Source: Rhizophagus irregularis (Eukaryota > Glomeromycota > Glomeromycetes > Glomerales > Glomeraceae). From it: a DNA stretch of 64,000 nucleotides. Positions 5,261 to 60,435 of this stretch are shown one piece after another. Positions within the stretch are counted from its first letter, which is position 1. Every line of letters starts with the position of its first letter. A program made the translations under genes and the position numbers. The notes below the pieces were generated by a model. The model saw only the letters and a program-made list of their open reading frames with translations, had not been told where the DNA came from and searched no databases. The DNA is taken from contig NC_089431.1 of NCBI RefSeq assembly GCF_026210795.1, positions 4,154,001 to 4,218,000 on the forward strand, in the 5' to 3' direction.

Positions 5261-5547
5261 ATTGTCTGATATTAAAAAATCAATTTTATGTCTATAATTT
5301 GTTGATTTTTTTTGAAAAAGATTATTTTTGAATGTTGTCCTATTTATAAAAAAATATTTTCAGCAATAATATTGTATTAAAACATATAATTCTTCATAGA
5401 AGTTCATAAATCGAAAAAAGTTAATACTAATATAACTAATCCAAAAATGTATCCTTGAAAATGAAAGATGAACTTAGTAATATTAAACAATATGAAATTT
5501 CATTCATTTGTTTCATTCATTTGAAGACGTTGCATGATTTCCAGTAA
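5261..5547. other. Upstream region of the kinase pseudogene
   Basis: The reading frame stays open upstream of the ATG at 5260 for more than 20 codons. It aligns with the leader of the intact paralogue (KIDFLISDN before the Met), but has no ATG where that paralogue has its start. No other feature was seen. Confidence 0.4.
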
Positions 5548-22323: not shown

Positions 22324-23075
22324 GATGTATCCTGCTACTATTTCCCTTTCCTTTACCTTACTCCTCTTGATGAGGTTTTTACCTCAAAAGCAGAATTTTG
22401 AGAAAAAATTTTTTTACCAATAACCAATCAGAGTATAATTTGATTTCTTTCCGAATAGAATCATGTAATAAAATTCAGCGGCGGGCAAGATCAGTTGTTC
22501 AAGATCAGTTGTTTCTGGCAGGATCAGTTATTTCATGTGCAGACATACTGATTCGTGATATCGTTTAGGTCATATGTGCTTTGACCACATTTACTGCTTT
22601 AATCATGTTAGAGACTGCGGCATTACATCATTATGTAATTATGTAACATTTTTACTTTGTTTACATCATGCTTTTTTATTTTTTCATGTTAAAAATCATT
22701 AAGGAGTTCTTATATCCAGATCCACGCAGTACATAATCTTAATCTCTGTAGAATTTTTCTAGAACTGCATCTAGAAAAGAATGAGAAAATTTTTTTACTT
22801 TGTTCGTTGGAATTACAACTGAATTTGTACTTACGCCACATTATAATTGTCCTACGTATTGTACATGAGAGTACATATGAGCATTCTTTGAAGGAATTCT
22901 TTCATTTTCCAAGATACATTTTTTAAATTAGTTATTAACTTTTTGGGTTAAAAACTTCCACGAAGAATTATTTGTAAAATTTATATAAATTTATTATTGA
23001 AAATAAATTTATAAATTGGACTACATTCTCAAATGCCTCAAAATAAACCTAATTTTTTTCAAAACAAATTAATAT
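22324..23075. other. Intergenic, upstream of kinase gene
   Basis: No gene recognised. A direct repeat GATCAGTTGTT occurs at about 22490-22512. The promoter of the downstream kinase is presumably here, but no clear box was picked. Confidence 0.3.
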
Positions 23076-24964
23076 ATGATGGAACAATTAACAAATTATA
23101 AACATAAAATTGACTTTTTACTATCAGATAATATGCATTTATGTCAACCAGCACAAACCACGGTTAAACAAAATAGAAAAACATATAAAAAATGTAATGA
23201 ATGTTATAAAAGAAAACCATTTGCTGATTATCAGATTTGTCGCATGTGTTACAAATCAAAAATAGCTTTTAAATCAAGTGGAAATAAGGTTATTGATAAT
23301 TTTATCAAATATACACAAATCAATTATTCATCCCGAGATGGAAAAATGGAGTTTGTTCCCTATAATCAATTCAAAAATATAGAATTTATTGCTGAAGGAG
23401 GATTTAGTAAAATTTATAAAGCTACTTGGGTTGATGGTCCAATCAAAGGTTGGTATATACGTGATGGTGCGAATATTTCTCGTAATAATAATTATACTGT
23501 TGTTCTCAAAAAACTTCACAATTCTGAAAACTTTACACCAAAGGAACTAAATGAGGTACAGTACATGTAATATTTTAAATATTCAATATAACAATGATGT
23601 TAAATTAAGGATTTTTTATTTAGCTCAAGGTATTTTATCAGATTTATTCAAATAGAGAAACTTCTAATGAATTCATTTGCCAATATTTTGGAATTACTCA
23701 AGATCCTATTACCAAGGATATTATGATTATTATGCCATATTATGACTTAGGTGACTTGATACGCTACATAAGTAATGATTTTTATAATATTTGTTGGGAT
23801 ACAAAGTTGTTTAAATTACGTCGTATAATATATGCACTTAATAATATCCATAATTCAGATATTATTCACAGAGATTTACATAGTGGAAATATCTTTATAA
23901 GTGGAAGGTTTGCATATATAGGTGATCTGGGAATAAGTAAATCTGCAACTGAATCTACAGATAATAATGAGAATTATGGTATTATTCCTTATATGGCACC
24001 AGAGATTTTTCAAGGACAAAAATATACAAAAGCTTCAGATATATATAGTTTTGGAATGATTATGTGGGAGCTTATGACAGGTAGAAGACCTTTTTGGGAT
24101 CGAAATCATAATACATATCTTATTATTGATATTTGTGATGGTTTACGACCACCAATTGTCACAAATGCACCTGAAGAATATATTGAATTAATGAAAGAAT
24201 GCTGGCATTCTGATCCGGAGAAAAGGCCAACAGCCATTTATATATTTAAAAAACTTCTTAATATGTCGGGTTTGATAATTGAAATTGTAAAATCATCAGA
24301 TATTGGTCCTGTAACAACTAATCATTCAGGTGCTGTTTATAGGAGTAGACCTTTAAATAAAATGATTCATTCCGCAATGTCTTTAAGGAGTTCAAGAAGT
24401 CTGCTGTCTACAAATTTAGAAACTGGTAAACAATTATAATATTATTTATTATAAATTATTTAATTTTGTTTATTTATGTTATTATTAATAATCATTATTT
24501 CTTTTAAAGGTAAAAGAAAGTTTGAAGATCTAGTTACAAAAAATGATGACGATGGTATTATGGATAATAAAATTTATGGTTTTATTCTGTAATTAACTAA
24601 ACAAACTTCCAATAAATCAAAAACTTTATAGGTCAATGTATCAAAAAGAAAAATTTATGTGAAAATGAAATTAATGGTAAATAATTATTATTAATTAACG
24701 AATTTATTAGTATTTTTTAAAATTTACACTTTTATATGTTTCTCTAGAATATCTTACGAACGAAATTGAATTTGATGTTAATGTGAATTTTAATCAATCC
24801 CATAAACCTCATAATAAAGGTAAATAGTGTAAATAGTTTATTGGTGTTTTTAATAATATCTTAGTAATGAATGCTTTTATATGTTATAACCATTTATTTT
24901 TTAATTGAATATAGATTACATCACTCTGGAATTTGAACTTGATATCGATTTTAATAATCCTTGA
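23076..24964 (+). CDS. Protein kinase with CxxC leader (complete, 6 exons, 505 aa)
   Basis: Exons 23076..23555, 23624..24425, 24510..24578, 24632..24676, 24748..24819 and 24915..24964; introns are GT-AG, the last four all in phase 1. The leader carries two CxxC pairs (CNECYKRK, CRMCYKSK), a possible zinc knuckle. The kinase domain follows: glycine loop FIAEGGFSKIYKATW, lysine in VVLKKL, hinge IIMPYYDLGDLI, catalytic loop IIHRDLHSGNI, metal-binding IGDLGIS (DLG instead of DFG), YMAPEIF, WDRNHNTYL and CWHSDPEKRPT. The tyrosine-kinase-like style fits the family amplified in arbuscular-mycorrhizal fungi. The small 3' exons encode an acidic tail (YLTNEIEFDVNVNFNQ, EFELDIDFNNP). If the intron after 24425 is retained, translation stops at 24439. 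Substrate unknown. It is the intact reference for the pseudogene at 3341..5260. Confidence 0.9.
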
Positions 24965-27203: not shown

Positions 27204-28755
27204 TTATTCAATTACAATTTGAAATATCTCATATTCTTCTACAGAAAATTTACCTCCAATTTCTCTGATCGATTTTTCATAAGATTTTTGTTTAAAGTAA
27301 CTAGTTTTATAAGAATTAAAATCCTCACCCCTCAAAATAAGATCATTACTACCAATTACCAAATGATGGTCCATTATTAATATAGCACTATATTCATCAA
27401 AAACATAACTTAAAATATAATTTCCAATATTATCACTATTATCATTATCATTTTTAAAAGAGAATATAAAACTATTAGCAGTGCTATAATTATAATTGAG
27501 TTCCCAAATTGTTGGATTATACCCTCCAAGAATTTCATTACTATTTTTAACCTTAATAATTGTTACGGTATTAGATTGATTATCACAAATTTCATGAAAT
27601 TTAATAGGTGTAAACCCATCACGAGATCCACGAAGCATTAAATTGAATTCGTATGAAATTATCTTATTTGTATTATCTGTATTATCTGTAATATTTGTAA
27701 TATTTGTAATATTTAATTCATCAATCCACTTTGAGATTAATTCAGCATGTTGATGCGTAATAATTTTAGAATCAATATTTTTAAATTCATTTCTCTAGTT
27801 ACATGTGGTCTTGGTTTACTATTAGGATGTAAACTTAAATGATTTATTAATAAATCCTTATATAATTCTTTCGATAAAATTTTTTTATAAGGTAATACTT
27901 TATCTAAAAATTCCTTGGAACTTAAATTATAAAATCTTATAAAAGGAATATATTGTTGTAAAGTATTTTATAATATATTGAAATCATCTTTTGAGAAATT
28001 TGTAGGATCAGAAGGAATTCCTGGATTTTGTGCATGTCCCCATTTAAGTACGTGTTCCCATACATGAACTTCACCCATTTGAAAATTATCATTTTGAATA
28101 AGTGTGATCAAAATTTTTTCCGAAATTAAAGAGAAATCCATTGAATTAAATATTTTATCCGGTTCTTTAGATATTAAATCGGTACAAAATTTTTGAAGTT
28201 CTAAAAACGAATCATTTTCAAATAATGTTTGATATATCATGTTAAAATTTTGTCCCAACCAATTTGCATATTTTTCAATCAAAAAAGATTGTAAATAATT
28301 AACTAATTCTTGAAGACTTAATTCATTAGCAGCAACTAAGATTTTAATGATATCATTAGCATCATGTTCCTCTAATGGAAGTCTTCCTCCATAAATATAC
28401 CTTAAAAATCGAAATCGGTGAAAAAAAAAATTTTTTAAAAAAAAAATTTAATTATTAAATAACATCATAAATTATTAAAAATTCTTTCCCACCTTAAAAT
28501 TGTTTGAAAAATATCGGGTAAAATATTTGGTAATTTAATATGTACCAAATTTTCATCATTATTCTTTAAAATTCTTCGTAAATGAGGTGAATGATGATTT
28601 AAAATAACTTTATGAGCTTGAAAGATTTTTACGTTAGGATCATTACCAACTTCAATGGTAATATCACAGTATTCGTTGTCATTCAAACTTTCGAGATAAT
28701 TCTGAGATAATTTTGGCAAAAATAATTTTGGTAAAAATTTATTGTTTATTATAAT
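27204..28755 (-). pseudogene. Broken BTB-BACK-TLDc gene
   Basis: Minus-strand paralogue of the gene at 31260..32795. The BTB part (28755..about 28494) has no start: where relatives have ATG, the frame reads ...IIINNKFLPK, and a 15-bp duplication gives LPKLFLPKLSQ. The donor GTGGGAAAG is weaker than in the relatives. The second exon starts at the G before TATATTTATGG near 28399 and is open through WEHVLKWGHAQNPGIP. It then meets an in-frame TAA at 27970..27968, where relatives have a Lys codon. A frame change follows near 27800 (after HPNSKP). The TLDc part (27638..27204: MLRGSRDGFTPIKFHE, ILGGYNP, YEIFQIV) is open. A short Asn-Thr repeat (NITNIT...DNTDNT) precedes it. Three independent lesions make function unlikely. 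Confidence 0.82.
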
Positions 28756-29397
28756 TATTTTCTTCTCTTTCTCTTTTTTTTTTTCTGGGAAAAAGGAAAA
28801 TTATAATTTGATCAAAGGTAAATTGGCAATAAATCAGGAAATCATAGTTGCACAACATTGTAAATCCGGATTATAAGCCCAATTAGATTTGATAAAACAA
28901 TGAAAGATTAATGGTAATTTGTCATTATTATAGCATTGTATTGTGGCAAAGGTTACCTGTTTCTCTGTTGTAAAAAATCAAACACATAGTGTTCCACATT
29001 GTGGTAAATCCGTAAATATAAACGTGAAAATTTATATCGTGATATTATCCGATTTGGACCGCCATCTAAGCCATCTAAGATAGGACGAGATGAATTATTA
29101 GATAGAAATGCAGTAGCCGTATTTTCTGATCGTTAACGATCATGATGTTTCGTTCGTAAATATTTGTTATCATTTGATGTAATGTTGAAAATTGAACAAT
29201 TCAATTGAAAATAAAATGTCAAAATAACCAAATAATTTCGTTTCTCGCCCCTCAAATGCAAGCAGTTCATTAGATAATTTTTGTTTTTTTTTAAAAAAAA
29301 AATACAAATTAAGAAATATACATAACAACGAAATGATCCTGAATTTCTACGTGTAAATACAAGAAAACTATATAACATAAACACACTAAATTAATTA
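28756..29397. other. Intergenic between two BTB-TLDc copies
   Basis: No gene or repeat recognised; contains the probable former promoter of the copy to the left. Confidence 0.35.
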
Positions 29398-30852
29398 TCA
29401 ATTTTTGATTACCAAGAAAACTTCGTATTCTTCTATAAAAAAATCACCATCAGTTTCTCTGATCGATTCCTTATAAGAATTTTTTATACAACTACTACTT
29501 CTATATAAATTATTTAATGATAAAATAATGTCCCCATTACCAAATGATGGTCCATAATTAGGATTATTAAATATGGCGAAATTTCCATCTTTTATACGAC
29601 TTAAAATATGATCTTCAAGGTTATCATTATTCTTAAAAGAAAATAAAAAGCTATTATTAGTGACACCATAACTATTAATATTAGAATTCCACGTTATTGG
29701 ATTATATCCTCCAAGAATTTCATCACTATCTTTTACTTTAATAATTGATACCGTATAAAATCTATTAACACAAATTTCATGAAATTTTTTTGGTGAAAAT
29801 CCATCACGAGATCCACGAAGTATTAATTTGAATTCATATGTAGAATTCAATTTATCAGTAATTTGTAACCCATTGATCCATTTTGAGATTAATTCAGTAT
29901 GTTGAAGCGTAATAATTTTTGAATCAATATTTTTACGAAGTTTTGATTTACCGATTGGCTTGTTATCAGGATGCACACTTAAATGATTTCTTAATAAATC
30001 CTTATACAAATCTTTTGGTAAAATTTTTTTGTAAGGTAACACTTTTTCCAAAAATTCTTTAGAAGTAAAATTATAAAATTTAATAAGAGGAATACATTGT
30101 CGTAAAGTATCCTTTAAAATATAGAAATCATTTTTTGATAAGTTTGTAGGATCAGTTGATAGTTCCTGATTTTGAGCATGACCCCATTTAAGTGCATGTT
30201 CCCATACTTGAACTTCGTTCATCTGAAGATTTTCATTTTGAATAAGCGAGATCAAAATATTTTCTGGTATCGAAGTGAAACTTAATGAATTAAATATCCT
30301 ATCCGGTTCTTTGGACATTAAATCATTACAGTATTTTTGAAGTTCCAAAAAAGAATCATTTTCAAAACTCGTTCGATATATCAAGGTAAAATTTTGTTCC
30401 ATCCCATTTGTATAGTTTTCAATAAGAGAAGATTGTAAATAACTAACTAATTCTTGAATATTAAGTTTGTTCGCAGCAACCAATATTTTAATGATATCTA
30501 AAATATCATATTCTTCCAAAGGAAGTTTCCCCCATAAAGATACCTGAATTTCAAAAATCTTTTAAAAATAAATTCTTATATAAATTCACATATAGTACGT
30601 CCTCTTACCTCAAGATTATGTGAAAAATTTCTGGTAAAATATTTGGTAATTTAATATGGACCAAAATTCCATCATTTTTCTTATTAACTGACAAAATTTT
30701 TCGTAAATAAGGTTTAAAATTACCATATGAGCTTTAAATATTTTTACGTCAGGGTCATCACCAACTTCAATAGTAATATCATAATATTCGTCATCATCTA
30801 ATATTTCAAGTAAGTCTTGTAATAATTTTGGTAAGAATTTATTATCAACCAT
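29398..30852 (-). pseudogene. BTB-BACK-TLDc gene with two frame disruptions
   Basis: Exon 1 starts at ATG 30852 (MVDNKFLPKLLQDLLEILDD) and its donor follows 30609; exon 2 runs 30543..29398. In exon 1, about 10 bp are missing after MVILN compared with the other copies (which have RRSP or YRSP there), shifting the frame into a stop. At the start of exon 2 one A is missing in GGGGGAAAC, which again shifts the frame before LEEYDILD. Beyond that, 373 codons are intact: BACK-like WEHALKWGHAQNQELS, TLDc FKLILRGSRDGFSPKKFHE, ILGGYNP, GPSFGNGDI and IEEYEVF. Either a recent pseudogene or, less likely, two assembly errors (one at a homopolymer). Confidence 0.75.
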
Positions 30853-31164
30853 TATATTGAGGAGATTGTTGTTTTGAAGAAAAAAGAAAAACAAACGTGA
30901 TCGTGTATGGTAGGGTAGTATGGTAATTGTCAACCTTATAAATCTTTTTTTCTGAATCGGGAAATCAAGATCGCACATCGTTGTAATGAAGTTGATATCT
31001 TAATTAAAGAAAATTTAATATTATGGGTCAGTCGGTATAGAACTTTCTGCAAATTCGCTTTAATAATCATTATCCCTTTGTTTTTTTTTTTAAAAAAAAA
31101 AAAAGATTCAATGCAATTCGTTCGATGGAAATGAATGAATGATCTGAATGATACGGGAGGTTGG

Positions 31165-31195
31165 ATCACGTGATAAAGGAATTTAAGTATAAATA
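31165..31195 (+). promoter_or_regulatory. E-box and TATA box upstream of BTB-TLDc gene
   Basis: The palindrome ATCACGTGAT (31165..31174) and a canonical TATAAATA (31188..31195) lie 95 and 65 bp before the ATG at 31260. The 407-bp space to the divergent copy at 30852 probably works as a shared promoter region. Confidence 0.55.
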
Positions 31196-31259
31196 GTACG
31201 CCACACAAACTCCCCTAAAAAAACCAAAAAAAAGTTTAAACCACAACTATAAACGAAAC

Positions 31260-32795
31260 ATGATAATGGATTTAAAGGATTATGAGTTTTTGCCTCAATT
31301 ATCTCAAAATTTACTTGAAAGTTTGGACGAAGACGAATATTATGATATAACTATTGAAGTTGGTAAAGATCCCTACGTAAAAATTTTTCGTGCTCATATG
31401 GTTATTTTAAATCGTCGTTCTCCTTATTTGCGAAGAATTTTATCAACTAATAAAAAGTACAATGATGGAAACTTGGTACATATTAAATTACCAAATATTT
31501 TACCAGAAATTTTTCATATAATTTTAAGGTGAAAGGAGAATTAAAACTATAAAATAATTTAATTAATATTTTACAATATTTTTTTTTTAATATTAAGTAA
31601 AAAACTTTTTTTTCTTTTTTTTTATTTTAGGTATATTTATGGGGGGAGGCTTTCTTTAAAGGAATATGATACTGCAGATATCATCAAAATCTTGGTGGCG
31701 GCTGTTCAACTTAACCTTAAGGAATTAATAATCTATTTACAATCATTTTTAATTAAAAACAAATCCGATTGGATGGAGAAAAATTTTAACCTTATATATA
31801 GGACGAGTTTTGAAAATGAATCTCTCTTGGAACTTCAAAATTACTGTAATAAACTTATTTCAAAGGAACCAGAAAGGATGTTTGAATCACAAAATTTTTC
31901 TTCAATTCCAGAAAAAGTTTTGGTCTCGCTTATTCAAAATGAAAATCTTCGAATGAGTGAAATTGAAATTTGGGAACATGTTCTTAATTGGGGACTTGCA
32001 CAAAATCCGGAACTTCCATCTGATCCTGCAAATTTTTCGAAGGATGATTTTAGTTTATTGAAAAATACCTTAAAATCGTATATTCCTTTTATTAGATTTT
32101 ACGATTTAACCTGTAAGGAATTTTCGAAAAAAGTATTACCTTATAAGAAAATTTTACCAAAGGAATTATATAAGGATTTATTGGATACATTTTTAGATTT
32201 ACATCCTGATAGTAAACCTGATAAATCAAACCCTCGTAATTCTAATAGTTCAAAACATATTGATTCTAAAGTTATTACATCACAACATGCTGAATTAATA
32301 TCGAAATGGATTGATAGATTAGAAATTACGGATAAACTGACTTCTTCATATGGATTCAAATTAATTCTTCGTGGATCTCGTGATGGGTTTACGTCTCGTA
32401 AATTTCACGAGGTGTGTGATGATCAAACTAATATTGTAGTAATTGTTAAAGTGAAGCAAAGTAATGAAATTCTTGGAGGGTATAATCCAGCCACGTGGAA
32501 ATCTGGTTACCGTTTTAGCACTACTAGAAATAGTTTCATATTCTCCTTTAAGAATAATGATGGTATTGAAAATTTTATTTTAAGTCGTGTAATGGATGAA
32601 GAGTATGCCATACTTAATAACCCTACCTGCGGTCCTTCGTTTGGTAATGGTGACCTTATTTTGTCAGGCGAAGAGAGTTCTTCTGGTTATTGTGAAAGTT
32701 ATTGTGAAAAAAGTTCTTATGAGAGGCTTATTAGGGAAACCGAAAGTGAATTTTCTGTAGAAGAATATGAAATATTTCAAATTGTAAAATACTAA
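31260..32795 (+). CDS. BTB-BACK-TLDc domain protein (complete, 2 exons, 477 aa)
   Basis: Exons 31260..31528 and 31631..32795, with intron GTGAAA...TTTTAG splitting an Arg codon as in the other copies. ATG 31260 (MIMDLKDYEFLPQLSQ) is followed in frame by another ATG at 31266; either could be used. Residues ~10-90 form the BTB domain (DEDEYYDITIEVG, FRAHMVILNRRSPYLRRIL). Residues ~100-230 form a BACK-like region (IWEHVLNWGLAQNPELPSDP). Residues ~290-475 form the TLDc domain (FKLILRGSRDGFTSRKFHE, ILGGYNPATW, FIFSFKNNDG, CGPSFGNGDLIL, VEEYEIFQIV). BTB-BACK adaptors often recruit substrates to cullin-3 ligases, and TLDc domains are linked to oxidative-stress responses and V-ATPase binding; the target is unknown. 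It is the only fully intact copy of the 27-33 kb cluster. Confidence 0.92.
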
Positions 32796-34460: not shown

Positions 34461-36736
34461 ATGGCAAATTTAGATGAAAATAATCAAGGTGAAAGTATGG
34501 AATTATTAGGCGTGATTTATGGTATAGGAATGAACGTTAATAATATAATAGGAGTTGGTTTGTATATTTATATTTACTGATTTTAAAAAAGGAATATCAA
34601 TACTAGATTTAAAAAAATGATTTTAAAATATATATGCAGGCATTTTTACAACTCCCGGAATTGTTTGGAAACAGGTAAAAACGCCTCATGTCGTTATATT
34701 ATTATGGCTAGCCGGTGGGATTGTAAGTCTATTTGGTTCCCTTATTTATACCGAGGTAAACAACATTGTCTATATATAAATGAATTTTTTTTTAAAAAAA
34801 AAATTATGTCGATTTAACTGTTCTCTGGTTTAAAAAAAAAAAGTATGGAGCCCTACATAGAGATAATGGTGGAGAAAAAATTTATTTGGAAAAAGCATAT
34901 CCATCACCACCATTAATGGCAAGCTACCTTTTTAGCTTCATGTTCATATTGTGAGTATAATAATTATTTTCGTAAAAAAAATTTATAAACTCTCCATATA
35001 ATTAATTTATCATGGTATTATTTAGCGTGATTCGACCCGTGATTATATGCGCAGTATTACAGTCTGCTGCGCAATATACATGGTATATGTTTGTTGGAAC
35101 CTCTCCATTGGATGGAGATGACAAAATAGATCCACTCTTAAATGGTTGGCAAAACAAATTTAAACCTTACTGGTATTTATTTTAAATTTATATACAATCT
35201 GTAAATTCTTTTTATTTTCATTATTTAAAATCCTTAAATAATTTCTCTTATTCATAGGATATTGAAATTGATAGCAATTTTTTTTTTGTTATTAATAACA
35301 GGATATCATTTGTTAAATAGAAAATTGGCAAATAAGATAAATCATGGTCTTGCAATAACTAAAATGATCGTGATATTGGTAATTGCATTGGGTGGAATAT
35401 CAAAGTATCATAATAACGAAAATTGGAAGAAACCTTTAGATGATAATTCGATCAATACAGCCGTTAATTCTTATCCTATTGCAATTATTCAAATTTTATT
35501 TAGTTATAACGGATGGAACACTCTAAATTATTCTTTAGATGAATTTAGAAATCCTGAAGTAAAATTAAAACTTAGCAATATTTCTAGTATTGTAATTGTA
35601 ACGATATTATGTAAGTTTTTTTTTAAAAGTATTTTTTTTTTGAACAAAACGTTGTATCTTTTATCTAATCACTTACTTTTATCAGATTTATTGGCAAATG
35701 TTGCATTTATTACTGCTTTACCATCTGATGTTATAACAAAAACCGAACATTTTAATGAGACAATTACAGCAGATTTCTTTAAAAGTATTTTTTTTGACAG
35801 TAATGTTGCTGCAAGGGTATTATCACTTTTTGTTGTTCTTTCTGCTGTTGGTACTGCTGCAACAAGTGTTTGGAGGTATTTAGTGTAAATTTTTCATTTT
35901 TAAAAATTTTTTTTTTTTAAAAAAAAAACATATTAAAAAATTTTTTTTTGATTAGTGGATCAAGAGTTATTGTGTCAGCGGCGAAATCAAATTTTTTTCC
36001 AATCTTTTCACCACAATTAGTAAAGTGGAGAGAAAGGGAGATAAATCAGCAAGGGCAAAGAGGGGAAAATATGCGATATACTGAATATACGCCAGTTAAC
36101 GCGTTATTAGCGCAACTTGTATGGTGTATATTCATTATATTAATCGTTGGTGGATCAATACAAGTTGATAGTTTCGTGCTATTCACTTCAATAGCAACTT
36201 TTTCTGTCTGGATATTTTACATTGTTACAAGCTTGGGTTTAGTTGTAAGCATAATTCAAATTCATTTTTTTTTTTATTATTTAACATTTATTGTTATTTT
36301 TTATTCATTTTTTTTTTAAAAAAAAAATTTTTAGAAAACACGAAAAAGATATCCTGGTAACCCTCCATTCAAAGTACCACGTTCAATAATTCATTTGTTT
36401 ATAGTTTCGGGATTTCTATTTATTGCATTATCATTTGTCCCTGATAAAGAATCAATACATCCGTATATAGTTCAAATATCATTTATCTTGGTTAGTTGTA
36501 TATTTTTATTTATTGGATTTATTTGTTATTTCGGATTATTTCGACAGCAACAGCAACCGATACAACCGCAACAGATACAACTACAACCGATACAACCGCA
36601 ACAGATACAACCGCAACAGATACAACAGCAACAGATACAACCGCAACAGATACAACCGCAACAGATACAACCGCAACAGACACAGCAACAACAGATACAA
36701 CAGCAACAGATACAACAGCAACAGACACAACAATAA
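34461..36736 (+). CDS. Amino-acid permease, LAT/SLC7-like (complete, 8 exons, 566 aa)
   Basis: Exons 34461..34557, 34640..34755, 34844..34950, 35036-10 (35026)..35172, 35258..35610, 35686..35875, 35956..36244 and 36335..36736, that is, exon 4 starts at 35026. All introns are GT-AG and the phases close to 567 codons with TAA. The first membrane segment holds the APC signature (IYGIGMNVNNIIGVGIFTTP). There follow about ten further hydrophobic segments (for example VVILLWLAGGIVSLFGSLIY, LIAIFFLLLITGYHL, IVILVIALGGI, FLFIALSF). The intracellular KTRKRYPGNPPFKVP loop before the last two segments is typical of SLC7/LAT transporters such as fungal methionine-type permeases. It probably imports amino acids at the plasma membrane. 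The usual ...GSGIF... is NVNNIIGVGIF here. The C-terminus is a Q/P/I-rich repeat. Confidence 0.9.
36545..36735 (+). repeat. 15-bp coding minisatellite (QQIQP)n in permease tail
   Basis: Tandem units close to CAACAGATACAACCG, about a dozen copies, encode QQIQP/QQIQQ repeats at the very C-terminus of the permease. Unit variants differ by single bases. Long open frames on other strands and frames are shadows of the repeat. Confidence 0.9.
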
Positions 36737-45510: not shown

Positions 45511-46443
45511 TTTTCTTTTTATTTCTGAATTGTTTATATACTAAATTCTATAACTAGGAAACGGGAACCGTTGTAAGTCCAGAACGAAAAACTAAAATTT
45601 GCCGATTTCATTGGGTGACGATCACATGGCGGACAGAGAAACTCACGTGATCGATTTTTTTTCATAGTGCGTAGACATATATTGTCCTTCGCTTCGCTCT
45701 GGACAATAAAGTTGTTGACCTTTTGTAGTTGTTTAGATACCTAATTTTATGTTGAGATGCTGACTTCTTGCACCTAATTGGGTGCTGGATTCTATATTGG
45801 AGTACTTACTCTTTGTGAGCATAGCAGACATGCTCATATCACCTTACTGATTATTTACTGATTACTAGATTCTGCAAAATATCTGATTCGATTTGAATCC
45901 GTGAATTAGATCTGAATCAGATCTGGATCAAATCATTAATTTATAATCCATAAATCTGATTAGACCAAAAAATAATGATCCGATTTGAATTGGATTAGAT
46001 CTGAATCAGATCTGAATCACATTTTGAATCATTTGAATCAAGCAATAATAGCTATCCGAAAATTTTTTTTAATCCAAGAAAAATGTTTTATTTAACAATT
46101 TAACAGAAATAACATTTTTTCTTTAGAACTCTTAAAAAAACCAATTTTTTTTTAAAAAAAATCTCACTAACTCTTTAAAAAAGAGTTTCTGTAAAAAATG
46201 AGAAGGAACGTCACGAGTCTAATGATAACAAATTGGCAACCAATCAGATGCTAATAGCCTTTCTTATTGGACTCTGACCATTTTTATGAATGCCAATTGT
46301 GGTCAATTAATGGCGCAAATCAAGATAAAATCGGAATGCAATATTGGCATTAAATGGGAGAACTAATTTATATATATCAGAATTTACCAATAATATTAAA
46401 TTGTTAAAATCAATTGCATTTAATAAGTAAATTTATATAAATA

Positions 46444-48119
46444 TAGTGCTCCGAAAAAAATCTGATCTGATCTGGGATCCGCAGATTTGATCCAAGTCAG
46501 ATCAGTTTGGTTTTCAAAATTTTGATCCGTAAATCAGATCAGATTTAAAAAAAATCTGATCTGATCAAATTCAGATCAGATCAGATCAAACACAAGAAAA
46601 TCTGATCTGATCTGAACAGATTTCGGATCAGATTTTTTTTTTAAATTAAAATTTTTTTTAAAAAAAAAATTCATTTTTTTAAAAACCCTTTCCTGGACAA
46701 ATGGACGCCAGACGACCAAGATTTAAAAGAACGAACTAGGTAAGTTCATTTCTTTTTTTTTATTATTTTTACTTGAGGGAACTTAATTAACGGTTTTCTT
46801 CTTTTTTATTAGGAAGCCTAGATGAACGAAGCCTAACGACCAGGATTTAAAAAAAAAGAACGAACCTATGGTGAGTTCGTTCTTTTTTTTAAGGTTTTTT
46901 TTTATTTTTTATTTAAGGGAACGTAATTAACGTTTTCTTTCTTTTTTTTAGGAAACCTGGACGTAAACAAAGTCGTTAACGACCAGGATTTAAAAAAAGA
47001 ATGAACTATGGTAAGTTCGTTTCTTTTTTTAAGTTTTTTTTTTTAATTTACTTAAGGAAACATAATTAACGTTCTCTTTCTTTTTTTTTAGGAAACCTGG
47101 ATGTGGACGAAGCCATTAATGACTAGGATTTAAAAAAAGAATGAACTATGGTAAGTTCATTTCTTTTTTTAAGTTTTTTTTTTATTTTTACTTAAGAGAA
47201 CGTAATTAACGTTCCCTTTCTTTTTTTTTTAGGAAACCTGGACGAACGAAGTCGTTAAGATGTTAACAACCAGGATTTAAAAAAAAGAACGAACTATGGT
47301 AAGTTCGTTTCTTTTTTTAAGTTTTTTTTTAATTTACTTAAGGGAACGTAATTAACGTTCCCTTTCTTTTTTTTTTAGAAAACCTGGACGTGGACGAAGT
47401 CGTTAATGACTAGGATTTAAAAAAAGAATGAACTATGGTAAGTTCATTTCTTTTTTTAAGTTTTTTTTTTAATTTACTTAAGGGAACGTAATTAACGTTC
47501 CCTTTTTTTTTTAGGAAACCTGGACGTGAATGAAGCCATTAATGACCAGGATTTAAAAAAAGAACGAACTATGGTAAGTTCATTTCTTTTTAAGTTTTTT
47601 TTTTATTTTTACTTAAGGAAACGTAATTAACGTTCCCTTTCTTTTTTTAGGAAACCTGGACGAACGAAGTCGTTAAGACGTTAACGACCAGGATTTAAAA
47701 AAAAGAACGAACTATAGTAAGTTCGTTTCTTTTTTTTAGGTTTTTTTTTTATTTTTACTTAAGGGAACGTAATTAACGTTCCCTTTCTTTTATTTTTAGG
47801 AAACCTGGACACGAGACAAAGCTAAACGACCAGGATTTAAAAGAACGAACTATGGTAAGTTCATTTTTTTATTTTTATTTTTATTTTTTTTACTTTAAGA
47901 AACGTAATTAACGTTTCCTTTCCTTTTTTTAGTACAAGGACCAGATCTGAACCAGATTCGGATCAGATTCAAATCGGATTCAAATGGATCCGAACCAGAT
48001 TCGGATCAAATTGAACTAGATCTGATCAGATTCGGATCAGATCAGATCTATTAAAATAAAAATCAAATTAGATCAGATTTAAGTTAAATCCAGTCTGAAC
48101 CGATCTGTTAAGAGCACTA
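46444..48119. mobile_element. Non-autonomous hAT-like element with 8-bp target duplication
   Basis: TATAAATA stands directly before (46436..46443) and after (48120..48127) a 1676-bp segment with ends TAGTGCTC and GAGCACTA, the form usual for hAT elements. The first and last ~180 bp are packed with GATCTGAT-type motifs that may bind transposase. The middle is a nine-unit tandem array. No transposase is encoded. Confidence 0.75.
46681..47935 (+). repeat. Tandem array of nine exon-like units (~140 bp)
   Basis: Nine units, each with the same order: a T-rich tract ending in TTTTTAG, then GAAACCTGGACG..., a conserved ACCAGGATTTAAAAAAAGAA, ACTATG, GTAAGTTCGTTTC (donor-like), a T-run, CTTAAGGGAACG, TAATTAACGTTCCC and the next T-rich tract. 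Two imperfect palindromes recur in every unit (GAACGAAC...GTTCGTTC and GGGAACGT..AACGTTCCC). The ~57-66 bp between acceptor-like and donor-like sites is open in some units but has stops in others, so protein coding is doubtful. Confidence 0.85.
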
Positions 48120-48339
48120 TATAAATATATTGCTCAAATTTATTTACATTATAAAAACAATTAAAATACTAATTTAATATATTAAATGTCCTATAATATA
48201 TAATACATAAAGTATTACTCTCGAAACTTATTATCTAATCCAAGAGAACCTACAAAAAGAAGTAAAATAAAACGTTAATAATGTTTCTTAAAAAAAATTA
48301 AAGTTTCAAAATTTCAAAGTTGAAACTTATCGATCAAAA

Positions 48340-49130
48340 GCCCAAAAGAAACTGATATCTAAAAAAAAAATAAAATTAAGCCAATTTAATTTTACCAATC
48401 CAAAAGGCAGTATTAAAGCCGATACCTAAAAAAAGAAATAAAAAAATGTTAGAAAAAGTTATTTTTTTAAAAAAAACAAAGTTTCAAAAAAACAAAAATT
48501 TTGAAATTTACCCGATCTAAGTGAAGAGTCTCACCGATACCTAAAAAAAGAATAAAAAAAAAATATTAGAAAAAAGTTTTTTAAAGTTTTGAAAGAACAA
48601 GAACGAAACTTTAAAACTTAGAAACTTATCCAATCCAAGTGAAGGGTCTCGCCGATACCTAAAAAAGAAATGAAAAAAAATATTAGAAAAAAAATTTTTA
48701 GTTTCGAAAGAACAAGAACGAAACTTTTGAAACTTACTAATCCAAAGTGAAGGGTCTTGCTGATACCTAAAAAAAGAAATAAAAAAACATTAGAAAAAGT
48801 TTTTTTTTTAAAAAAAATAAAGTTTCAAAAAAATGAAAATTTCGAAACTTACCGATCCAAAAAAAGATTCAAAAGAAGAACGAAACTTACCTATTCAAAA
48901 GAAAGGTTGAAGCCGATACATCATACATACCTAAGAAAAAAAGAAAAAAAATTAAATTTATTATTTTAAAAAAAACAAATAAGTTTCAAAGTAAAACCTT
49001 CAAAACTTACTGAATCTAAACTAAAAAATGTTTCAAAATAAATGAAATGAACGAAACTTATCAATTCAATTCAAAGAAAGCCGATATCTAAAATGGAAGT
49101 GTTTTTTTAAAAAAGGAAAAAAAGTAACTT
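48340..49130 (-). repeat. Tandem array of about seven units, exon-like on minus strand
   Basis: Units of about 105-150 bp. On the minus strand each has a T-rich tract ending TTTTTAG, then GTATCGGC(G/T)AGACCCTTCA and a few more bases, then GGTAAGTTTC (donor-like) and a GAAACTTT/AAAGTTTC stem. The exon-like part is only about 27-30 bp. It differs in sequence from the array at 46681 but has the same layout. Confidence 0.75.
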
Positions 49131-49625
49131 TTAAAAGCTCAAAAAGATTATCTTTAGACACAAACCATAATTGACTAGGCTGATCTGCCAATTGATTTAT
49201 TTTGCTGATTTTGCCATTAGTCAAAAATTTTGACAATTCTTTTTTTTAAAAATTCATTAAAAGATGGGTATGTTTAATTGTTTTAAAAAAAAAATTGTGC
49301 ACTTATCCCTTTTTTTATAAATTCATTTAAAAAGGGGCAGATTTTTAGATGTTAGAAAAAAAAATTTTTATTTCATTAATTTCATTATAAAGGATGTCCC
49401 TTTTTCTTTTTTAAAAATTCATTAGAGAGTGAAGTAATTATATTTAAGAAAATTTTTTTTTTTTACTAGCACTTTTCCCTTTTTTATAAATTCATTTAAA
49501 TGGGCCAATTTTTATATAGAAAAAAAATTTTATTTCATTATAAAAGAATGAATTTTTTAAAAATGTTAAAAAAGAAATTTTTTTTTATCACTGATTTACC
49601 CTCTTTATAACATTATTAATACACT
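49131..49625. other. AT-rich linker upstream of hAT transposase
   Basis: Several repeats of (T)CCCTTTTT..AAATTCATT(T)AAA blocks (about 49245, 49305, 49405, 49475) form a loose direct repeat of 80-100 bp. Probably part of the transposon's 5' region. Confidence 0.4.
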
Positions 49626-51837
49626 ATGGAAGTCGGTGATGATGATAATGGTAATGAACAAGATTTTGAAAATGAAGTTTTACTGACAGTGGAAAGTTTT
49701 AAAGGTAGTATTGTCTAGATCTATTTTACAAAAGATCCTGATTTTAAAGAAAATAAGAAGGCCACCTGCAAACATTGTTCTAAAGTTTATGTGTATTTTG
49801 GGGGCAACACATCAAATTTAAAGAAACATTTAAAAAAACATAATATACAAATGAATTAAAATCATGGACAAGACATTAGAGAAATGTTTAGCTCTTCTAA
49901 GGTATATGTCTTTACTTTATTTCTTGTAAAGTTTTTCAAATTTGAATTTCCATTATTAATAATAGTTATTAATTAGTGGGTTTATAATAATGATACAATG
50001 AGAGGAAAACTTGTCCAATAGGTTATAATGAATTAACAACCCTTTAGCGTTGTTGAAGAACTAAGTTTTATTGAGTTTATGCATTCATTCCATCCCAGTG
50101 CCTTGGTATCCTTAGTAGACACGATCAAGAGAAACATTTACAATCTTTACAAAGTAAATGTTAAAAAGATTAAAGATATTTTGCAAATGGTGCCAGAAAA
50201 GATATTATTTACAACCGATATCTGGACTTCCCTCTCAACCAAATCTTTCCTGTCCTTAACTGCCCATTTCATTGATAAAGAATGAAAGTTATGAAGTGTG
50301 ATAGTTGACTTTATACAAATGTATAGATCTCACACTGGCAAAAATATTAAAAATACATTCATATTAGGATTAGAAAATTTGTCAATTGAAGATAAGGTAA
50401 TTACTTATTCTTAAATTTATTCTTAAATTTAAGTTAGAATAAATATATTTAATTTGTTTATAAATTTTATAGCTATTTGGAATTACTCTTGATAATGCCT
50501 CAAATAATCAAGTATTTATTAATGAATTAAGTAAATGGGCAGATCAAAATCATATCATTTTTAACAGTGAAAACTACTTTAGATGCTTTGTGCATACAAT
50601 TAATATAGGTGTACAAGAATTTTTAAAATATTTAGATCAAGAACTAGGTTTAAGTCAGGTTAGAATTTTTTTATTTTACTTAATTTTGGTTTATTAATTA
50701 ATAATTTAATTTATTCATTTATAGCTCAGGCAACTTCTTAATAAAATTTGTGCATCTACTCAACGGTGTGAAAAATTAAGCCTTGCATGTAAGAATAATA
50801 GTATTGATGATTTAAAACCTATAATAGATGTGCCAACAAGGTGGAATTTGATGTGTGAAATGATTTCAAGAGCTTTATTAATAAAACCTGTAAGCTTTTT
50901 TACGTACTATATTTACTGTAATTTTGTATTATTACTTATTACTTTTCAAATTAATTATTTATTGGGCTCTTGATATTACTGCAATATCTGATCATGATCT
51001 CAAAAGCTATACACTTACAGAAGAACAATGGAATGGACTTAGAAAAATAGTGGATTTTCTTGAACTATTTAAAGAAGTAACAGCAGTAATTTCAGGAAGT
51101 ACATATTCAACACTTTTTATGATGATTCTATTATTCAATTTTTTAATTAATCATGTAGAAGATATTATTGGAGATGAGAATGAAAAAGTTAATGATGAAA
51201 ATGATGATGAAAATGATGATGAGAATATACGAATTGAAAAATCAATAAAAAAAGCTGCTAAATATTGCAAAGATAAATTATTGAAATACTATGTCAAGAC
51301 AAATAACGTGTATTCAATAGCAGTTATCTTAGATCTGAGATTAAAAATACAATATTTTAAAGATGAAGAGTGGGATGATGATTTAATAAATGAAATTAAT
51401 CAAAAGTATGTACTTTTAAAGTTTTTGATATATTTATTTAATAATTATATTAATCATTAATTTTTTATTTAGTTTTGTGAATATTTTTAATTCTAATTAT
51501 GCCACTACCTCCTTAAATTCCAACATTTCCTTCACCTCAAAAGAAAAATCAGTAATATCACGTGTATTTAAACGTCACTATGGAAAATGTAGATAAATTT
51601 AAAACATATATTGCTTTACCAACTGTTTCTGGTAAAACTTTGGATCCTCTCAAATGGTCGCGAATTAATGAAACTCAATATCTACAACTTAGTAAGATGG
51701 CCCATGATTATTTAGCTATACCTGCTACAAGTGTACCATCAGAGCAGTGTTTTTCAATTTCAAAAAATTTAATTACAAACAATAGAAACTGTTTAATAGG
51801 AAAAACAATAAGAATAAGTATATATTTGAAATCCTAG
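49626..51837 (+). pseudogene. Decayed BED-hAT transposase, multi-exon
   Basis: Likely exons 49626..49901, about 50037..50396, 50473..50658, 50725..50889, about 50968..51405 and about 51473..51837. The first has a BED zinc finger (CKHCSKVY...SNLKKHLKKH). Next come the catalytic-region motifs FTTDIWTSLSTKSFLSLTAH and ITLDNASNN, then VPTRWNLM. The C-terminal hAT dimerisation motif follows (PLKWSRINETQYLQLSKMAH, ATSVPSEQCFSISKNL). Lesions: TAG inside the BED finger exon (SIV*IYF), two TGA codons after FIDKE, and loss of the AG before the fifth exon (TTATTGGG where TTATTAG is expected). It once moved DNA by cut-and-paste; now inactive. Confidence 0.88.
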
Positions 51838-53160
51838 AATTATTTATTGAATAATGAATAAATAATTATTTATTTTTAAAATTATATTATTTTTTTTATT
51901 TTATTTTATTTTTTTCTTAGTATTATAAATATAAGTATCATGTCAATAAAGTAACTAATCTAATATCTATCTATATAACTAAAAAAGATTAAGTGAAATA
52001 TAATTAATGACTATAGAGAGGTTGGCTAAATACACTTTTTTGAATAATAGTGTAGTTAGCCGAAATATTCACAGATAACTGTAACATTTTGAATTGCTGT
52101 TTCGTATTCTTTATAAGACCCGCTTGATCAACAAATCATGTTGTACATATTGTATATCTAATAGAATTTTTTTTTTTTTTTTTTTTTGATTATTAAATTA
52201 CCGATTTATTTTTTTTTCAAATATTTATTTTTTTCATCATTTTTTTTTTAAACCTATTTTTAAATTTTTTTCCTTTTCTTTACCATTCTTTTTTTTCTTT
52301 TCCTCTTTCTTTTTGATTTGGTTTTTTTTTCACCAAGAATTTTTTTGGTTTTTTTTCATTCTTTTCCCGTTTATTTTTCCAAACTAAAATTTTTTTTTTT
52401 TATAAATAATTCTATTGTTTTAGTCTTTTAAGACCGATTTTTTTTATACTATTTTTTTTTCGGTCTTTATTTTTAGACCATATTATTAAAAATTTTTTTT
52501 CAGTCTTTTTGAACCTTATTTTTCAGAATTTTTTTTGGTACCTATTTTTTTTATGAATTCCTTTTTTTTCAAAAATTTCCTTTTTTTAAACCAATTTCTT
52601 TTTTTATCCTTTTTTTTCCCCTAATTTTATTTTTGTTTTTTTTTCAAATTTTCTTTATTGTTATTTTTTTGGGGTTTTTTTCGAATTTTTTAAAACCTTT
52701 TTTTTGAGTTGGTTTTTTTTCCAATTTGAAAATTCTTTTTTCACTTTTCTTTTTTTGGATTAGCTTTTAACTTTTTTTCCAATCTGAAAAATTTTTCTTT
52801 TTTTGGTTTGGCTTTTTTTTTGTTTTTTCCTGAACCATATTTTAAACCATTTAGATTTGGATCAGTGATCAGATTGATGCTGCAGCACCACAGTAATTCT
52901 TCTTAATAAGAATATTTTCTCTAATTATTTTTTAGGTTCAATAATAGACTGACATATAATTTACTTATTTATTTATTTTTTGTAATAATAGATCTGACAA
53001 TAGATCGGAATAATTAATTTTCTAAAAAATTTTTTTTTTCATAACAATAGATTGTTATAATTGATTTTTGGAGGATTTTTTTTTACTTTAATTTTAAAAT
53101 ATATTATTAATACTTTAAAACTAAAATGTTTGCCATGAACCCTTTTTTTAATTAAAAATA
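51838..53160. other. T-rich region, probable 3' part of transposon
   Basis: From 52165 to 52830 the plus strand is dominated by T runs separated by short variable words (TTTTTTTCCAATTTGAAAA, TTGGTTTTTTTT), a possible decayed version of the minus-orientation arrays. No gene. Confidence 0.4.
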
Positions 53161-53339
53161 TAAAATTGAATCAGATTCAAATTGGATTTAGATTAGATTC
53201 AGATTAGATTCAGATTAGATTCAGATTAGATTTAATTTGATTTGGATCAAATCCAATTTTTTTAAAATAAATCAGATTGGATCAAATCTTACTATCTAAA
53301 TCTGATCTGATCTGATCTGTGCGGAACCCTACTAGTACC

Positions 53340-56055: not shown

Positions 56056-56454
56056 AAAAGTCAGTGTTAGCTAACATATTCTGCTCTATATAGGTCCAAT
56101 TTGAAGTACCTCATGGATAACAAGAGACAATATTATATATCTCATCATTATAATTTCACGTTTGTATTAATTGTGAAAATTGAAGAGAGAAAGCGTTGTT
56201 AACCGATTTGGTACGTTGAATAGATTAACTATGATTTGCAGTCAGGGAGATTAAGTACGTTTAACTATGACTGAAATCCAATCAAACAAGACACGCTTAA
56301 AACAGGGAGTTCATTTATTGTGTAAAAGGTTATACTTTATTATAGAACTTTATAATTACAAGAATAAGAACTAAAGGAACTAATTCGAACTGAAGGAACT
56401 AAACTTATAACGAAGGAAAATACCAACGTTATTTATATAAAAGTTACTACATAT
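56056..56454. other. Intergenic
   Basis: GAACT(A/G)AAGGAACTAA-type words repeat near 56370-56400. No gene seen. Confidence 0.3.
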
Positions 56455-56615
56455 AAAGATATAATAAATATAATAGATATAATAAATATAAGAAATATAA
56501 CTAATATAATAAATATAACTAATATAATAAATATAATAAATAAATTAAATATAATAAATAAAATAATTATATCGATTATATTAAATATAATTAATATAAT
56601 AAATATAATAGAAAT
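56455..56615. repeat. AT-only tandem repeat (ATAATAAATATA)n
   Basis: About a dozen degenerate copies of a 9-12 bp unit made almost only of A and T. Confidence 0.75.
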
Positions 56616-57168
56616 AATAGGCTAAATAGGCTGCGGCTAGGTCGGCTTGGCACAGTTGGACACAGTAGATCCTAATTTTCCACATGATCTTCTGGCGTAG
56701 TAAATTGTAACTCTACACGTAACTAGGGGTAACAGCATGTTGGTCCAAATATTTTATAATAAATCTATTAACTATTATTAAAAAAATTAATTCTATTACG
56801 AAAAAAATAAAACAAATAAAAAATAAAAAATAAAAAATACGATAAATAAGTTATTAAACCTCTTCAGATCTTCAAGATGGATTATAAATATTAATTTGTC
56901 TTTTCCATTTGGTTGTTTGATCAAGGTGCAATCAATGGTACTAGTTAATATATATTCATAATATTAATATACAGTACAACAAGTAATAGTAATTTAAAGA
57001 TTTATAAATTTTTTATTGATAATTTATTATTTGTTGATGTTAAAGACATAAAAATACTGTTATTTGATTTATGATATAATAAATCTAAAAACTTTAATTA
57101 ATTTTTATAATTACTTAATGGCAAGTAATTATTATTTATAGTTTTTTAAAGTTTTAGGCAAATTTACT
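56616..57168. other. Intergenic
   Basis: AT-rich, no gene or repeat recognised. Confidence 0.3.
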
Positions 57169-59515: not shown

Positions 59516-60435
59516 AATTAGATAATCAAAAGATTATCGATTTTTTTTTGTAAAAAAAAAAATATTCATCCGCTTCTTTAAAGTGCATTTCTTCACGAAG
59601 AATTTTTTTTTTAGTTTATTGTTTTTTTTCGTTCCTTTTTGCGTTCCGTTTTGCTAAATTCGTACATTTCTTTTCTTTTAGGTCTCAGTTCTTGCAACTC
59701 TTCACGGAAAGAAGGTGTTACTTTTTTTTGGTTTTTTTTGGTTTCCGTTTCTAATTTCGTACACCTCTCTTCTTTCTTCGTTTAGATTTTCCGTTCCTTG
59801 AGGTTTTCCTTGCGAAAGGTTCCAGTTCCTTGGAAAGGCAAGTTTTTTTTTCTTTTTTTTTGGATCCCTTTTCTAATTTTGTACGCCTCTCCTCTTTCTT
59901 CATTTAGGTTTTCCGTTCCTTGCGGTTCTTCTTACGAGGGCTTCGGTGGCAAGTATTTCTTTTCTTTTTATTTCTTTTTTTTTTAGATTCCTTTTCTAAT
60001 TTCGTACGCCTCTCCTATTTTTTCATTTAGATTTCCATTCCTTGCAGTTCTCCTTGCGAAGGGTTTCAGTTTCTCATTGCATTTCACAGAAATGTAAGTG
60101 TATTTTTTCTTTTTTTCTTTTTTCTTTTTTTTTGGGGTTTCTTTTTCTAATTTCGTACGCATCTCCTCTTTTTTTGTTTAGGTTTCCATTCATCATGTAA
60201 AGGCTGGTGTGTATTTTTGTATTTCATTATTTCAGTTTTTTTTTTTTTGTTTCTGTTATCCTTTGTTAATTTTATCCTTCCTCTCTTTTTTTTTAGGATT
60301 TCAGTTCCTTACGATTCCATTGGAAGGTAAATAGTTAGAGTATTTCTATCGCGTCTCTTTTTTTGTTTCTTTCATTCTTCTTTACTAATTCCATCTTTCT
60401 CTAAGTTTTCAATTCTTGCGGTTCTTCGTAGAAGT

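Follow-up and report, generated by a model that had tools for sequence, protein, structure and literature searches.

A tandem array in a non-autonomous hAT-like transposon of Rhizophagus irregularis has the anatomy of a chain of short introns and mini-exons, and arrays of unrelated sequence with the same anatomy recur across the genome. We consider it probable that these are spliced, mainly non-coding intron chains carried by DNA transposons and maintained by selection, with splicing predicted from sequence. Splicing best explains how the signals are ordered and spaced, why they keep to one strand and change slowly, and why they recur in unrelated arrays. The window analyzed is a 64-kb stretch (NC_089431.1, genome contig label C3, 4154001-4218000), and the genome searched comprises 146.7 Mb in 32 contigs.

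TRF placed the array at 46712-47932, with a period of about 140 and 8.8 copies. The sequence predicts nine complete GT..AG introns (73-83 nt) and eight internal mini-exons (55-66 nt); the array opens with a donor and closes with an acceptor, which is why nine full introns enclose eight internal exons (Table 1). The initial annotation had described nine tandem units with both splice-like sites, eight of them with a donor. The array proved stronger than claimed: GTAAGT and GTGAGT were indeed the donor words, but the count was short, since nine donors (eight GTAAGT, one GTGAGT) pair with nine acceptors at the intron boundaries in Table 1. All nine introns thus have the GT..AG ends and GTRAGT donor of U2-type introns, and the opposite strand of the element (46444-48119) has no GTRAGT word. 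A parser that required only a donor, a Y-rich acceptor and the next donor, run over both strands of the 64-kb window, returned 12 units: eight from this array, two from a second array, one antisense artefact of this array and one elsewhere. Other tandem repeats of the window lie at 36548-36731 (15-bp x 12.3), 56451-56619 (9-bp x 18.9) and 59721-60071 (122-bp x 2.9), the last with no donor-acceptor plan by eye. The window also contains two similar copies of a kinase-like gene (by eye; 4009-5359 on the minus and 23073-24439 on the plus strand), several BTB/TLD-like frames by eye at 27204-32795 (TLD and BACK matches in 31563-32795) and a P450 match at 13933-14709 on the minus strand.

Table 1. 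Features of the array, its carrier element and the surrounding larger element (positions in the window)
Feature	Position	Strand	Basis or remarks
Larger hAT element (family 2) with second array and transposase remnant	45866-53331	+	Ends by homology to C27 copy
Left TSD TATAAATA	46436-46443	.	Same 8 bp at both flanks
Non-autonomous hAT-like element, 1,676 bp	46444-48119	+	TIR TAGTGCTC / GAGCACTA; GATCTGATC-type subterminal repeats; related ends genome-wide
Predicted intron 1, 73 nt, TAG/GTAAGT ... TATTAG	46740-46812	+	Donor/acceptor parse
Mini-exon 1, 58 nt	46813-46870	+	Donor/acceptor parse
Predicted intron 2, 81 nt, GTGAGT	46871-46951	+	Donor/acceptor parse
Mini-exon 2, 59 nt	46952-47010	+	Donor/acceptor parse
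Predicted intron 3, 81 nt	47011-47091	+	Donor/acceptor parse
Mini-exon 3, 59 nt	47092-47150	+	Donor/acceptor parse
Predicted intron 4, 82 nt	47151-47232	+	Donor/acceptor parse
Mini-exon 4, 66 nt	47233-47298	+	Donor/acceptor parse
Donor stem-loop, unit 5; AUG/GUA junction is the 6-nt loop	47275-47322	+	Fold of 47275-47378, z -5.78
Predicted intron 5, 80 nt	47299-47378	+	Donor/acceptor parse
Branch-site stem-loop, intron 5, GGGAACGU-AAUUA-ACGUUCCC; branch-like TTAAC at 3' edge of loop, 23 nt before intron end	47340-47364	+	Fold
Mini-exon 5, 59 nt	47379-47437	+	Donor/acceptor parse
Predicted intron 6, 77 nt	47438-47514	+	Donor/acceptor parse
Mini-exon 6, 59 nt	47515-47573	+	Donor/acceptor parse
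Predicted intron 7, 77 nt	47574-47650	+	Donor/acceptor parse
Mini-exon 7, 66 nt	47651-47716	+	Donor/acceptor parse
Predicted intron 8, 83 nt	47717-47799	+	Donor/acceptor parse
Mini-exon 8, 55 nt	47800-47854	+	Donor/acceptor parse
Predicted intron 9, 78 nt, ends TTTTTTTAG/TACAAGG	47855-47932	+	Donor/acceptor parse
Right TSD TATAAATA	48120-48127	.	Same 8 bp at both flanks
Second array, unrelated sequence, same anatomy	48418-49010	-	Parser recovered introns 48931-49010 and 48767-48852; remaining units decayed or not detected
hAT transposase remnant	50894-51837	+	PF14372 (below cut-off) and PF05699

Elements of the hAT superfamily end in short TIRs starting TAG or CAG, and the TIRs of the window element, the first member of what we call family 1, follow this rule. 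A genome search with the window array as query gave 64 matches from the 40 scored of 158 candidates; with the left end alone 40 of 180 candidates were scored, and with the right end alone 40 of 109. We read 38 family-1 loci: the window copy (L001) and L002-L024, all taken from the array search, and 14 more (L035-L048) picked from the end searches. Exact TIR words with an identical 8-bp TSD bounded 20 of the 38, and three further loci had a TSD equal at 7 of 8 positions when up to one TIR mismatch was allowed. The 20 TSD-bounded copies contain 150 GTRAGT donors in sense and none in antisense; the acceptor was the last signal in 20/20 and, by a crude rule, the donor the first in 16/20. Family-1 loci have 3-15 units by profile matches, although the locus with 15 (L015) may hold two arrays, and in 9 of the 14 loci L035-L048 GTRAGT words were fewer than matched units, indicating that some donors were lost. 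No transposase was recognized in the window copy, whose longest stop-to-stop frame is 51 aa (frames of at least 50 aa considered), or in L035-L048, where 12 of 14 loci had no frame above 100 aa and L042 and L046 had frames of 111-114 aa, taken without Pfam comparison. An autonomous relative with family-1 ends was sought and not found in the 14 extra loci, which include some long end-to-end spans and have no frame above 114 aa. Judged by its sequence, family 1 appears to be non-autonomous and hAT-like, and its copies have diverged to unequal degrees. One copy (L042) also contains a short coding-like amino-acid repeat, apparently an insertion. Across L001-L048, CpG columns vary far more than others (up to 22/47), as expected with cytosine methylation.

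The window element was inserted within a larger hAT element (family 2), which carries the second array of Table 1. The order in that array is a short exon, a GTAAGTTTC stem-loop, CTAAT, a T-tract, TAG and a GTATCGG exon. The window copy of the larger element has no identical TSD; its copy on C27 measures 8,997 bp, carries the TIR TAGGGTTCCGC and is flanked by two identical 8-bp TSDs, GGGTTCAC. The transposase remnant matches PF05699 in 51556-51834 (E 5.8e-16) and PF14372 in 50894-51457 (E 2.1e-4, 21.9 bits against a cut-off of 27). Transposase-like sequence lies in the plus orientation of the window and the array donors on the opposite strand, an arrangement also seen in the C27 copy.

We searched the genome with a donor-acceptor-donor pattern, GTAAGTTN{48,78}TTTTTAGN{15,45}GTAAGTT, and obtained 175 matches (80 forward, 95 reverse). 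The same pattern read backwards matched nowhere in the genome on either strand, and a mixed-strand control, with the donors reverse-complemented and the acceptor kept, matched seven times (4 + 3), two of them inside the C27 family-2 array. The 100 matches listed fall, by hand count, at about 67 places more than 10 kb apart; not every match need be an array, and part of the 175 may be ordinary genes. From the 100 listed places we chose 18 loci by eye for variety. At least 15 of the 18 had three or more parsed units, L058 had two, and L061 and L063 were absent among the units listed; the largest chain (L057) reached up to 18 parsed units. Several loci are related (L049, L050, L053, L054 and part of L059; L051 and L052; L055 and L056; L057 and L058; L059 and L066), and the 18 loci are not 18 families. 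Sequences differ between these groups, and units differ strongly even within L049, L051 and L053. In L060 (C5:2621500-2631499), four and three parsed units lie on opposite strands within 10 kb, perhaps in nested elements. Two loci have further elements near their arrays. In L027, viewed by eye in reverse complement, an element with the ends TAGAGATG / CATCTCTA lies between CCAGTAAT repeats, adjoins the array and is full of GGATGCCGAGATATTCGGC-type palindromes; in L033, a BED-finger-like hAT transposase start, also noted by eye, is close to the array and probably belongs to a nested element.

An automatic search for boundaries and TSDs at L049-L066 gave nothing reliable, and the ends of one carrier were instead read from two complete copies aligned to each other. 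The alignment of L053 and L054, flanks included, extends over 4.7 kb and stops at CACAGGTCGAA and TTCGACCTGTG; the TIR CACAGGTCGAA begins with CAC, with 11 of the first 12 positions equal. A 3-bp TSD was present in two of the three copies read to both ends, TTA in L054 and TAA in L049, whose right terminal word has one mismatch. The TSD of the C2 copy (L053) did not match, and for L050 the left end alone was found. Judged by these ends alone, the carrier of the L049, L053 and L054 arrays looks like a CACTA-type element, which means that the arrays are not peculiar to hAT. By their ends, the array carriers include two hAT families and one CACTA-like family.

We aligned 339 family-1 units with exon edges, kept 329 (10 were dropped for more than 25% gaps) and counted non-CpG mismatches against the consensus in 234 units from L001-L024 and in 95 units from the more diverged L035-L048. 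In the first set the splice signals had the lowest rates, at 1.7% for AG (8/458), 1.8% for positions +3 to +6 (17/931) and 2.6% for GT (12/466), and the donor-hairpin exon arm was on a par with GT (75/2770, 2.7%). Rates were 4.3% in the intron arm (80/1868) and 5.0% in the branch hairpin (245/4885), the Y-tract and T-rich middle had 86/2595 and 667/5482 mismatches, and the exon edges reached 5.7-15% (exon start 143/2487, exon end 272/1761). In the diverged set the splice signals remained at 2.4-2.7% (+3 to +6, 9/371; AG, 5/187; GT, 5/186) and the remaining regions at 5.5-20% (intron arm 42/760, Y-tract 58/1031, exon arm 76/1111, branch hairpin 135/1966, exon start 84/997, T-rich middle 258/2125, exon end 135/671). 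GT and AG were both intact in 210/234 and 82/95 units, respectively. The GT rate is alike in the less and the more diverged copies (2.6% and 2.7%), so that this comparison allows no inference on current selection or on the age of inserted copies.

A base-matched comparison of signal bases with other non-CpG bases, the T-rich middle excluded, gave mismatches in L035-L048 of 14/279 vs 107/822 for G, 5/278 vs 165/2284 for A and 0/187 vs 212/3079 for T, and the same direction in L001-L024; the p-values, from 1e-3 to 1e-11, are too small, since the units are related by descent and the words GTTTC/GAAAC recur between families. A few single G columns at exon edges were as well conserved as the splice bases. 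Seven pairs of homologous arrays, drawn from 12 of the 18 opened loci with some used twice, were also compared at non-CpG positions. GT and AG together differed at 3/132 positions and the rest of the intron at 215/2130 (p 0.0012); positions +3 to +6 were less clean (7/128), branch words differed at 7/139 and exons at 119/797. The proposal in the initial annotation that the splice sites are kept while the bases between them drift is consistent with these counts, the exon arm in L001-L024 being the one region to equal GT. Conservation centred on the palindromes had been named there as the adverse outcome, and the opposite was observed, with splice bases changing less than most palindrome bases.

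Folds of three window units gave z values of -5.78, -6.87 and -2.34, in agreement with the earlier description of two palindromes per unit, one overlapping the donor. In the predicted folds of the first two, pairing between the end of the exon and the beginning of the intron leaves the junction (AUG/GUA, AUA/GUA) as the loop, and a second stem-loop, with the arms and AAUUA loop of the branch-site feature in Table 1, carries the branch-like UUAAC. The third unit retains the donor stem; its minimum-energy fold differs at the branch site. The parser yielded 445 units from the window and L002-L066. Single-linkage clustering of their introns was replaced, because T-runs drew 435 of the 445 into one group; greedy clustering of T/A-collapsed introns gave 55 clusters. 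We tested the 43 representatives with a GTRAGT donor and a length of at most 115 nt, a few of which are diverged units of one family, and excluded 12 clusters (donor GTAAAT or GTAACT, or intron above 115 nt). YTRAY was present 15-45 nt before the intron end in 37/43 representatives, compared to 17.9 in dinucleotide shuffles (sd 3.2), and six had no branch word. CTAAY occurred at the branch position in 19/43 (shuffles 3.0, sd 1.8), and TTAAY, the branch word of family 1 itself, was mildly enriched (20/43; shuffles 14.3, sd 2.3); two permuted control words occurred in 1/43 each (shuffles 1.7 and 2.9). The Y-tract was part of the parser criteria but the branch word was not, and the proper distance of the branch word in the 37 representatives agrees with U2-type introns.

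The mean stem score was 9.74 on the donor side (shuffles 7.00) and 8.27 on the branch side of the 37 introns (shuffles 5.51). Single hairpins exceeded the 95th percentile of the shuffles in 56% (donor) and 49% (branch) of cases, so that about half fall short. A perfect stem of at least 6 bp starting at +4 was found in 24/43 representatives (200 shuffles, mean 9.7, maximum 17), with pair types that vary along the stem (CG, TA, GC, AT); stems from +4 onward could hinder U1. In its best register the branch hairpin has a loop of 5 nt immediately upstream of the branch A, with 201 of 333 rungs paired; swapping arms between introns gave 181.4 rungs (sd 6.0), and the maximum of 2000 permutations was also 201. 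Ordinary introns provided a weak control, consisting of 14 rough CCT introns (6 with good continuity, several clearly misparsed) and three introns of the hAT gene in the window. Under one scoring, a stem score of at least 8 starting at +4/+5 was reached by 22/43 array introns vs 1/14 rough CCT introns, and a branch stem score of at least 8 by 19/37 vs 1/8 rough CCT introns with a branch word; the three hAT-gene introns had no donor stem and one branch stem at this score. As read from these sequences, the intron plan common to the arrays is a donor beside or inside a stem-loop, a second stem-loop with the branch word at its loop, a Y-tract and TAG.

When the exons of the window array are joined, the longest frame covers 44/160 codons, below the shuffled mean of 49, and a coding reading of family-1 exons was rejected on this basis. 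Exon lengths over the 445 units fall into classes 0, 1 and 2 modulo 3 as 98/142/205. Schistosome micro-exon genes are long series of tiny coding exons with lengths in multiples of three. The arrays resemble them in the long run of tiny exons and differ in exon length (98/445 in multiples of three) and, in family 1, in having no long frame. A protein-coding micro-exon gene with degenerate copies would best suit L026, L052 and L055, whose joined exons are nearly stop-free (109/110, 76/76 and 94/100 codons, which base-shuffled exons reach in 1-3% of trials). However, L026 and L055 stay about as open when their exons are placed in random order (mean open codons 105.7 and 86.2), L052 less so (59.3), and most other chains resemble the window array in frame length. 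We regard such a gene as a most improbable source of the arrays; the class appears to be mainly non-coding, and L026, L052 and L055 could be coding. A genome-wide search for copies of family-1 exon-exon junctions, with at most two mismatches, found none, an absence that proves little.

It might be argued that the arrays are palindrome minisatellites acting as DNA, with repeats that form hairpins or bind transposase in hAT elements and splice-like words that are by-products of T-runs and palindromes. Internal tandem repeats are common in non-autonomous DNA transposons, each unit is largely palindromic, and in L001-L024 the donor hairpin has an exon arm conserved about as well as GT. We nevertheless consider this explanation quite unlikely, because the GT in the loop and the AG change less than the branch hairpin does and, in L035-L048, less than any of the arms; donors are strand-biased (150 vs 0), the mixed-strand control falls far below the true pattern (7 vs 175), branch words lie at the expected distance, and the same order of four signals recurs in unrelated families. 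The initial annotation had also set hairpins against splicing as a competing explanation. The hairpins are real, but the rivalry dissolves, with the splice signals sitting inside them.

The stems could serve another end if the sites are recognized and splicing is slowed, so that stalled spliceosomes feed small-RNA silencing or compete for splicing factors. The 24/43 representatives with stems from donor +4 onward suit such a trap, as do passages of PMC5554785 that cite unspliced introns as a signal for small-RNA production and silencing in Cryptococcus neoformans. The donors, however, are strong (GTAAGT) and accompanied by Y-tracts and branch words, and selection would not be expected to make a transposon feed the silencing directed at it, making a trap an unlikely function. 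Passages of PMC8469720 describe fungal introner-like elements, symmetrical sister introns and stwintrons with inverted repeats in which the donor G, branch A and acceptor G are frequently unpaired. The array introns share with them short GT-AG introns, inverted repeats and splice nucleotides frequently unpaired in predicted hairpins, suggesting that the intron module itself might be mobile and that repeated insertion built the arrays. This we consider very unlikely, since exon and intron multiply jointly as one unit within a locus. As described there, introner-like elements and stwintrons occupy many different genes with one terminal repeat, whereas the arrays consist of tandem exon and intron units in transposons with two small hairpins per intron.

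In the explanation we prefer, the array is a chain of U2-type intron modules and short, mainly non-coding exons in a non-autonomous hAT-like transposon. In family-1 RNA each 5' splice site would be displayed in the loop of a stem-loop formed by the exon end and the intron start; another stem-loop would present the branch site at its loop, with a T-rich tract and TAG downstream. Sense transcription would be followed by removal of the introns one by one, giving a non-coding RNA of joined mini-exons. Units are gained and lost, presumably through unequal exchange, and selection, assumed to act on active copies, would maintain the splice signals and stems. Splice sites carried by a hAT element are known from maize Ac/Ds, in which donor and acceptor sites let the element be spliced from pre-mRNA. 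Ac/Ds has few sites and the element is removed; the array has nine ordered donor-acceptor pairs that would keep mini-exons, with predicted stem-loops of its own. Mirtrons, in which one hairpin runs from splice site to splice site, are also short introns with hairpins, but two of the three window folds have separate stem-loops for donor and branch site, unlike the single hairpin of a mirtron.

The same plan in unrelated arrays and in hAT-like and CACTA-like carriers seems to point to a general benefit to DNA transposons. Our best guess is that many efficiently spliced introns would cause the transcript to be treated as a normal gene product and to escape RNA-directed silencing. According to passages of PMC5554785, nuclear RNAi against a transgene in C. 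elegans is limited when introns are present, and the protection of intron-bearing transgenes in plants is cited there. A benefit of the arrays could be similar, although the C. elegans barrier was shown, in those passages, with transgenes and genes and not with transposon arrays. Passages of PMC8647823 place hAT among the recently expanded families of R. irregularis, report many hAT copies with little methylation and describe the small RNAs of the fungus. These reports make silencing escape a reasonable guess. Cryptic introns in lncRNAs can mediate repression, as the title of PMC7229227 states, and an array effect could thus have either sign.

The strings 'splic' and 'intron' have no occurrence in the main text of PMC8647823 or of PMC11075540, and no such arrays were named in the titles and abstract openings returned by a literature search that covered few Rhizophagus papers and mostly non-subscription literature. 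We tentatively suggest that the arrays might form an undescribed class of selfish cassette, in which structure-coded mini-introns and non-coding mini-exons would let a spliced transposon RNA pass as gene RNA and evade small-RNA silencing. It is equally a tentative thought that such cassettes evolved in, or were exchanged between, DNA-transposon superfamilies of this arbuscular mycorrhizal fungus, with a splicing code held in RNA shape. According to the abstract of PMC11075540, two-thirds of the transposable elements of the R. irregularis genome are unclassified, and the arrays may account for part of its unclassified repeats. If spliced, they would be natural intron chains located apart from ordinary coding genes, at dozens of sites in the genome, and would offer a direct test of whether introns protect transposons from RNA silencing. 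They would also make it possible to study how splicing is tuned by stem-loops at the 5' splice site and branch site, and how one design came to be common to different transposon superfamilies.
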